From Deltaproteobacteria bacterium RBG_16_64_85 (GTDB lineage: Bacteria > Desulfobacterota > Deferrimicrobia > Deferrimicrobiales > Deferrimicrobiaceae): 37,928 nt of DNA. Each line of letters begins with the position of its first letter. The first letter of the stretch is position 1. Below the pieces are notes generated by a model. It was given only the letters and a program-made list of their open reading frames with translations, had not been told where the DNA came from and searched no databases. This document shows, piece by piece, positions 36,068 to 37,928 of this stretch. The stretch is from assembly GCA_001798885.1 (NCBI GenBank), contig MGQW01000065.1, positions 87,089 to 125,016 of the forward strand, in the 5' to 3' direction. A program made the position numbers and the translations under genes.

Positions 36068-37069
36068 ATGTCCTTGGCATATACCATCGTAAAGATTCCT
36101 CCGGACGGGAAGCCGAAGCTTCTCGACCAGGTTCGTGTCGTGCTTCGGAAACGACACTACAGCCACCGCACAGAGGAAGCCTACGTAGGGTGGATACGGC
36201 AATATATCCGGTATCACGGAATCCGGCACCCAAGGGAGATGGGGAAGGAGGAAATCGAGAATTTCCTGTCCCATCTCGCTGTGGTGCGAGAGGTGGCGGC
36301 TACCACCCAAAACCAGGCGCTGGCCGCCCTTCTTTTCCTGTATCGCGATGTTCTAGGCATCACCCTCGATTGGCTTGAAAACATTGTGAGGGCAAAGAAG
36401 CCGGTAAGGCTTCCGGTCGTGATGACCCGGGCAGAGGTGACGAAAGTCTCATCAAAACTTTATGGACAAAACTGGATCGCCGGGATGCTCATGTACGGCG
36501 CGGGTCTCCGGCTCCTGGAATGCCTGCAGCTTCGCGTGAAGGACATCGATTTCGGATACCGACAGATCGTCGTCAGGGAGGGGAAGGGGGGCAAGGCCCG
36601 GGTGACCATCCTGCCCTCTGCCATAGAGGATCGTTTGAAATTTCATCTTGAGGAAGTCGAGGCACGGCACGAAAAGGATTTGAGCGAAGGCGGCGGCTAC
36701 GTTAAACTTCCGGATGGGCTCGACAGGAAATATCCGGGTGCGGATCGACAATGGCGTTGGCAATGGGTGTTCCCTGCTGCGAGGCAATATATCGACCCCG
36801 CGACCGGATGTCCTTACCGGCACCACTTGCACGAAACGGTCCTCCAGAGGGCAGTAAAGGAGGCAGCTTCCCGTGCCGGAATCTCCAAGAAGATCACCTG
36901 TCACACTTTCCGGCATTCATTCGCTACCCATCTACTCGAGGAAGGGTACGACATTCGAACCATACAGGAGTTACTGGGGCATAAAGACGTCAACACGACG
37001 ATGATCTATACGCACGTCCTCAATCGAGGAGGAAGATGTGTGCGAAGCCCCATGGATTTTCCCAAGTAG
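36068..37069 (+). CDS. intI: Integron integrase IntI (tyrosine recombinase)
   Basis: Site-specific recombinase that inserts and excises gene cassettes at attI and attC. In the 333 residues: an N-terminal SAM-like core-binding domain (about 15-105) and a catalytic domain with Arg148 ([12 protein letters not shown]), Lys176 (GKGGKAR), His279/Arg282 ([13 protein letters not shown]), His305 (LLGHKDVNT) and nucleophile Tyr314 (TMIYTHV). The block that separates IntI from other tyrosine recombinases is present at about 221-237 ([17 protein letters not shown]), as is the C-terminal [13 protein letters not shown] 36068 touches AAGGGGG; an in-frame TTG at 36074 is better spaced. The gene appears intact, with lower GC than the preceding region. 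Confidence 0.94.
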
Positions 37070-37093: not shown

Positions 37094-37120
37094 TTTAGGC
37101 TGCACTTCTCGCAGTCTAAA
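37094..37120. repeat. 10-bp palindrome downstream of intI with core-site-like arms
   Basis: TTTAGGCTGC (37094-37103) and GCAGTCTAAA (37111-37120) form a 10-bp stem (one G-T pair) around a seven-base loop. The arms resemble integron core-site sequence (TTAGGC and GTCTAA). CAGTCTAA at 37112-37119 is also the exact complement of TTAGACTG at 37239-37246. No T-run follows on the + strand. Confidence 0.45.
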
Positions 37121-37237: not shown

Positions 37238-37275
37238 ATTAGACTGACAGCCAAACCGTCTAATTTAAGTTAGGC
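37238..37275 (+). other. Candidate attI recombination site
   Basis: GTCTAAT (37258-37264, an inverse core) and GTTAGGC (37269-37275, a perfect match to the GTTRRRY core) face each other across four bases, the layout of an integrase simple site. A direct core-like ATTAGAC lies at 37238-37244 and pairs with GTCTAAT as a 7-bp inverted repeat. Class 1 attI also ends in AAAGTTAGGC, and this site reads TTAAGTTAGGC. The predicted crossover is between G37269 and T37270. It lies about 200 bp after the intI stop. Assignment is by motif only. Confidence 0.5.
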
Positions 37276-37286
37276 CTATTTCTCTA

Positions 37287-37315
37287 TTGACGAAGGAGTA
37301 TGAAGTGATTACATT
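37287..37315 (+). promoter_or_regulatory. Likely promoter of the mazEF-type operon
   Basis: TTGACG (37287-37292) and TACATT (37310-37315) are 17 bp apart. Transcription would start near 37322, about 29 bases before the antitoxin ATG. It lies within the predicted first cassette, so the pair would carry its own promoter. Confidence 0.5.
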
Positions 37316-37320
37316 GTAAT
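37308..37320. promoter_or_regulatory. Palindromic operator overlapping the -10 element
   Basis: ATTACA-T-TGTAAT is a perfect 6-bp inverted repeat centred at 37314 and covers the predicted -10. Antitoxins of the MazE/AbrB fold bind palindromes at their own promoters, so autorepression by the antitoxin, or by the toxin-antitoxin complex, is the likely use. Confidence 0.5.
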
Positions 37321-37350
37321 TATATCGATGTTGGTTGGAGGTGGTATTCG

Positions 37351-37608
37351 ATGAAGGCAAGCATCGTTCGTATCGGGAATTCCCAAGGCATTCGAATCCC
37401 CAAAGTGGTGTTGGAACAGACCCACCTAAGCGGCGAGGTTGAGCTTGAGGTTCGGGACCGCCAAATTATCATCCGCTCAACGAAAAAGCCGCGCCAGGGC
37501 TGGGCGGAAAAGTTCCGGGCTATGGCGGAACGGGGTGATGACAAGTTATTGGATGCGGAGGCGGTCAGCCAGACTTCCTGGGATAAGGAAGAATGGGAAT
37601 GGAAGTGA
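37351..37608 (+). CDS. MazE-like antitoxin (AbrB/SpoVT fold)
   Basis: An 85-residue antitoxin. The N-terminal half (MKASIVRIGNSQGIRIPKVVLEQ, then VELEVRDRQIIIRS) is the swapped-hairpin AbrB/MazE DNA-binding domain. The C-terminal half, acidic and tryptophan-rich toward the end (SQTSWDKEEWEWK), would wrap and inhibit the toxin. ATG 37351 has GGAGGTGG (37337-37344) at ideal spacing. It overlaps the toxin gene by 16 bases, as usual for such pairs. Expected role: neutralise the endoribonuclease and repress the operon. Confidence 0.92.
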   Translation: MKASIVRIGNSQGIRIPKVVLEQTHLSGEVELEVRDRQIIIRSTKKPRQGWAEKFRAMAERGDDKLLDAEAVSQTSWDKEEWEWK

Positions 37609-37919
37609 AACGGTTTGAAGTCTACCTGGTGAGCTTGGACCCTACCGTTGGAAGCGAGATCAAGAAGAGTCGTCCCTGTCTTGTCATCTCGCCGGACGAA
37701 TTAAACCGATTCATCGCCACAGTCATAGTTGCCCCAATGACCACGAAGGGGCGAGATTATCCCTCTCGGGTTTCTTGTGTTTTCCAAGGTAAGCAAGGTC
37801 AGGTTGTTTTAGACCAGATTCGTACAGTCGACAAAACGAGATTAGTGAAGCGGTTGGGGAAAGTTGGGCCGCAGACGCAGTCGGAGGTTTTATCGGCTTT
37901 GGCAGAACTGTTTTCTTGA
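37593..37919 (+). CDS. MazF/PemK-family endoribonuclease toxin
   Basis: A 108-residue toxin predicted to cleave mRNA at short specific sequences. Family features: VKRFEVYLVSLDPTVGSEIKKSRPCLVISPDELN at the start (the GSEIKKSRP loop is the usual catalytic-face motif), IVAPMTTKGRDYPSRV, and GQVVLDQIRTVDKTRLVKRLG, the conserved DQIRTVDKxRL block. ATG 37593 and ATG 37599 are both possible; AAGGA lies shortly before the first. The gene is complete, ending nine bases before the window edge. The cleavage specificity cannot be read from the sequence. Confidence 0.93.
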   Translation: MGMEVKRFEVYLVSLDPTVGSEIKKSRPCLVISPDELNRFIATVIVAPMTTKGRDYPSRVSCVFQGKQGQVVLDQIRTVDKTRLVKRLGKVGPQTQSEVLSALAELFS

Positions 37920-37928
37920 AAAGGCCTA

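Follow-up and report, generated by a model that had tools for sequence, protein, structure and literature searches.

Integrons are bacterial gene-collecting platforms, in which the attI site is the docking site for captured genes. In reverse integrons the integrase gene intI is read towards attI; such integrons are known, for example, in Treponema (PMC3607928, PMC7691350) and have been listed for Blastopirellula marina, Chlorobium phaeobacteroides and Acinetobacter baumannii (PMC6557892). For T. brennaborense a GTTAGGT segment has likewise been taken as the R box of attI (PMC3607928). The attI1 site of class 1 integrons lies at the 5' end of the divergently read intI1 and carries the direct repeats DR1 and DR2 (PMC8946536). 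Here we analyze a stretch of 37,928 nucleotides (nt) at the end of contig C65 of Deltaproteobacteria bacterium RBG_16_64_85, referred to as the window, in which an initial annotation had proposed an attI site between an intI gene and a mazEF gene pair. Our sequence comparisons indicate that positions 37258-37275 are almost certainly the attI core (L and R boxes) of a reverse chromosomal integron.

The integrase gene and the attI site

Of 59 related genomes searched for IntI, 23 gave a strong match; the closest clade comprises 11 intI loci, including that of the window. The features that define the integron platform are given below, where G001 is a same-genus genome in which intI is reduced to a remnant.

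36068-37069, + strand: intI, integron integrase of 333 amino acids (aa), transcribed towards attI; identified by TIGR02249, the alignment with IntI4 and the catalytic motifs
37258-37264, - strand: putative attI L box (GTCTAAT, inverted core), read directly from the sequence; YCYAA is kept in 10 clade loci at the same distance from R and is also present in G001
37269-37275, + strand: putative attI R box, GTTAGGC; GTTRRNY is kept in 10 clade loci and in G001, and identity is at background 6 nt beyond the cut

The intI product matches TIGR02249 (integrase_gron) at full length with 459.7 bits (cut-off 265) and aligns over its whole length with V. cholerae IntI4 (2a3v, E-value 1e-86). We located the catalytic motifs (R148, K176, H279/R282, H305 and Y314) and the IntI-specific patch (residues 212-241), which identifies the protein as a tyrosine recombinase of an integron platform. 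Both intI and mazEF are on the + strand, and the site lies 3' of the intI stop codon. Since intI is directed towards the array, this is a reverse integron, an arrangement already published.

Direct reading of the sequence places GTCTAAT at 37258-37264, the spacer TTAA at 37265-37268 and GTTAGGC at 37269-37275, so that the inverted GTCTAAT does stand opposite GTTAGGC across a 4-base gap, exactly where the initial annotation had put it. The L-R site begins 189 nt and ends 206 nt beyond the intI stop. GTTAGGC occurs once in the 37.9-kb window, both strands considered, and an exact search of the 2,208,713-base assembly with TCTAATNNNNGTTRRRY (TCTAAT-N4-GTTRRRY) gave the present site and no other. 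The region gave no match in an Rfam search, and a consensus scan of the + strand between intI and attI found no sigma-70-like promoter (Pc). A conserved hairpin 3' of the intI stop (TTTAGGCTGC...GCAGTCTAAA in the window) was considered and ruled out, as RNAalifold yielded zero pairs for six relatives.

Conservation of the site and turnover of the following sequence

Among the 11 intI loci that make up the closest clade, 10 have the same L-spacer-R site 192-224 nt beyond the intI stop, with sequences such as GTCTAATTCGCG/TTGGGC, ACCTAATTTAAG/TTAGGC and GTCTAAACCTCG/TTAGGT (here and below, the slash marks the cut). When the 300 nt next to the intI stop were searched with a relaxed L-N-R pattern, 10 of 11 loci again gave a match, compared with 0-7 of 500 dinucleotide shuffles per locus. 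This rarity in shuffled sequences, together with the single match in the genome, puts the L-R pair far above chance. When the flanks were anchored at the cut, mean pairwise identity was 0.28 and 0.33 further upstream, rose to 0.61 in the last 17 nt and to 0.73 in TTRRRY, and then fell to 0.34, 0.25 and 0.28. The limitation of the identity peak to the last 17 nt and TTRRRY shows that the conserved footprint is the L-R site itself.

What follows the site is nearly always a different captured gene or set of genes among the ten related loci and the G001 remnant. Comparisons at the same locus give the sharpest view of this turnover. In G010 and G015, which belong to one genus, intI is placed as in the window, adjoining a radical SAM gene; the two genomes are 86% identical in intI, 70% in the spacer and 92% in the last 13 nt before the cut, and 53% identical in the next 85 nt (47% for shuffled sequence). 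The order in G001 is radical SAM gene, intI remnant of 75 codons, GCCTAATACGCG/TTGGAC and an unrelated cassette (local score 20, shuffled mean 19.6). The R'' of this G001 cassette, GTCCAAC, is the exact complement of its own R. Thus the expectation that the site would be conserved up to G37269, with a change of sequence after it, held in other species of the family, at the G010/G015 locus and in G001, and conservation does not continue unchanged across 37269/37270 into mazEF in the relatives. The attI reading of the initial annotation, which was based on the architecture of an integron simple site, is therefore supported both by the comparative conservation of the site and by the cassette turnover at G/TT.

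By the known integron mechanism, IntI would bind L and R as double-stranded DNA, and the cut, that is the predicted position of strand exchange, would fall between G37269 and T37270. The attI site would be joined to the bottom strand of the arriving attC in its folded form, and new cassettes would become the first in line, directly behind intI, a place presently held by mazEF; expression of the cassettes would be expected to follow.

Additional observations concern the G001 and G015 genomes and more distant taxa. The G001 locus (L133, G001:C178, reverse complement 1916-2240), with an intI fragment of about 75 codons and with attI and cassettes kept, is a fossil integron at the same locus. G015 harbors two intI copies of the same clade in one genome (L007 on C18 and L026 on C58), with attI at each. 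Similar candidate attI sites are found 184-252 nt after intI in the 3' flanks of intI in reverse integrons of Acidobacteriota (L028, L031 and L055), for example GTCTAAGTTGCG/TTAGGC and CAGTCTATATGGCG/TTGGGC.

attC arrays and integron orientation

Characteristic attC series are located downstream of the site, in the direction of intI, in several relatives: five near-identical sites of 111 nt in G009, sites of 101 nt in G002 and sites of 71-76 nt in G020. The numbers of attC sites downstream and in the same direction are five in G009, three in G002 and two in G006. With a covariance model built from ten attC sites, a run of more than 20 was found on G020:C8, and G002, G006, G009, G010, G011 and G015 each had several.

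Applied to wider IntI homologs, the same model showed attC downstream of intI and on the same strand in the window's own family, several Acidobacteriota and Gemmatimonadota, and upstream on the opposite strand in Gammaproteobacteria, Chloroflexota and others. In the IntI tree, the reverse type of the own family and G026, which belongs to another family, form a clade (support 100/97); the reverse label requires four changes on this tree, whose deep forks are weak. Two members of the window's bacterial family, G004 (L018) and G016 (L014), have IntI and attC in common with the window integron but are of the standard orientation: their IntI are 49-50% identical to that of the window and fall on a separate tree branch, and attC lies 5' of intI in the opposite orientation. 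Both integron orientations hence occur in one bacterial family.

The first cassette and the contig end

The region behind the cut contains the following features.

37270-37928, + strand: putative first gene cassette (mazEF), which starts at the cut site and is cut off by the end of contig C65 at window position 37928
37287-37315, + strand: possible weak promoter within cassette 1 (TTGACG-17-TACATT), from a consensus scan alone (three sites, 1.1 expected)
37351-37608, + strand: MazE-like antitoxin of 85 aa, cassette 1 (PF04014, E-value 3e-7)
37593-37919, + strand: MazF/PemK-like toxin of 108 aa, cassette 1 (PF02452, E-value 2e-30)
37922-37928, + strand: AGGCCTA, predicted beginning of an attC R'' (GCCTA[AC]) that the contig end interrupts; complements TAGGCCT of the R' extension at 37271-37277

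The initial annotation had noted that the motifs lie where the first cassette should begin, and this agrees with our analysis: cassette DNA starts at the cut and the attI site precedes it. Contig C65 (125,016 bases) ends nine bases past the mazF stop, in AGGCCTA. The 7-base complementarity between AGGCCTA and TAGGCCT (37271-37277) is as expected for a contig break within the R'' of the attC that would close this cassette. We looked for another contig of the assembly that directly overlaps the end of C65 and found none.

A mazEF cassette is also in the first position in G026; there the sequence behind mazF, GGCCCAAC, is complementary to GTTGGGCC at the junction of the same locus. This agrees with mazEF having the status of a cassette in these integrons. 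One Gemmatimonadota genome also has a mazEF pair (L030, 4394-4956; 60-65% identity to cassette 1), which lies directly upstream of intI and not downstream.

A probable distal end of the array on contig C48

When the attC model was applied to the source assembly, in a search that scored 150 of 1,250 candidates, C48:83-154 (L118, G000:C48 1-640; E-value 4e-5) was the one convincing attC-like site away from C65. Behind it lies a MaoC-like gene, which was recognized by eye and has a homolog (78%) in the G001 array. Further along this contig, C48:2385-3286 matches DNA beside the radical SAM gene of G005; our IntI search of the related genomes found no intI in G005. Together, the attC-like site, the MaoC-like cassette and the G005 match suggest that C48 is the far side of the same integron. 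Contig C48 is thus probably the distal end of the window's array; the join itself is absent from the assembly. A candidate tRNA remnant on this contig was dropped, as ARAGORN did not confirm it.

Alternative explanations

Several observations speak against an attI core at 37258-37275 as described above. In G026, the outlying member of the clade, R is clear and the L box is not; the assembly contains no complete attC for cassette 1, which is missing because the contig stops there; and the attC of C48 has a non-canonical R', GTTACGC.

The alternative that survives best, although we regard it as unlikely, is a fossil attI, that is, a formerly working site of an integron that is now inactive in this genome. 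Decay does occur at this locus, as seen from G001, which has kept attI and cassettes but just a fragment of intI, and elsewhere in the source assembly there is one convincing attC-like site, the one with the non-canonical R'. The intI gene of the window, however, is of full length and has the catalytic motifs, L and R are canonical, and R' is matched by the R'' in which the contig ends.

It is very improbable that the junction is what an older first cassette left of its attC and that the true attI lies upstream, for example at 37094-37118 (TTTAGGC ... GCAGTCTAAACC). The CAGYCTA conserved some 155 nt ahead of the cut would be in line with such an arrangement, but none of the ten intergenic regions contains a GTTRRRY core ahead of the site, and the change of sequence in all relatives falls at the downstream site.

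Finally, the motifs could have arisen by chance, in an AT-rich spacer that merely separates an orphan integrase from a normal mazEF operon of the chromosome. One could cite for this the 38% G+C of the intergenic spacer between intI and mazEF and the fact that mazEF genes are common outside integrons. Yet it can be practically discounted, since ten flanks share the site, the match is unique genome-wide and the same-genus comparison also speaks against it.

Elements upstream of the attI core

Besides the attI core, the spacer contains one motif that is kept in the family.

37112-37118, + strand: CAGTCTA, L-box-like motif about 155 nt upstream of the cut; CAGYCTA is kept in the family and may be an accessory IntI site

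CAGYCTA has six occurrences in the ten family flanks, whereas the shuffled mean is 0.2 and none of 300 shuffles reached as high a number. Counterparts of 37112-37118 are present in L004, L006, L009 and L011, and 13 bases of the window copy GCAGTCTAAACCT match the L region of attI in G010. A two-part attI in this integrase lineage, consisting of the L-R core and a remote L-like CAGYCTA near the intI stop (37112-37118), is conceivable but rather doubtful. If it were true, the CAGYCTA element could be an accessory IntI site or a recombination filter, unlike the adjacent DR1 and DR2 of attI1.

The other upstream motif, the core-like ATTAGAC reported in the initial annotation, is indeed present at 37238-37244, but it does not stand out clearly from chance, lacks conservation and should be left out of the site. 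RTTRRRY-like words number four in the ten flanks (shuffled mean 1.6, a number reached by 22 of 300 shuffles) and have no conserved position. As neither position nor number is conserved, and identity upstream of -20 is 0.33, ATTAGAC at 37238 was rejected as a DR-type accessory site.

Comparison with known integrons

The analysis yields eleven comparable attI sites from one bacterial family, including those of the window and of G001, with an 18-nt core about 200 nt behind intI and turnover exactly at G/TT. Thus, attI sequences supported by comparison are now at hand for a reverse integron lineage of uncultivated bacteria.

The site shares with class 1 attI1 (sequence CCTAAAACAAAGTTAGGC, which we confirmed in 5,000 or more plasmid records) the GTTAGGC core after AA and the inverted CTAA L box. 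It differs in having one base less between L and R, in its place at the 3' and not the 5' end of intI, and in showing no conserved direct repeat of the DR1/DR2 kind beside L-R. Hence the resemblance of its 3' end to class 1 attI, pointed out in the initial annotation, holds for the core and the preceding adenines and is limited to them, at the opposite end of intI.

Judged by its sequence, the site is a further case of the published reverse-integron kind, in an uncultivated lineage. With the reverse integrons of the Treponema denticola type (PMC3607928, PMC7691350, PMC6557892) it shares the L and R boxes, G/TT between intI and the first cassette, and the GTTRRRY core. Compared with the Treponema integrons, which are known here by their published description, the window integron belongs to a different integrase lineage and has no conserved equivalent of DR1/DR2 by the site.
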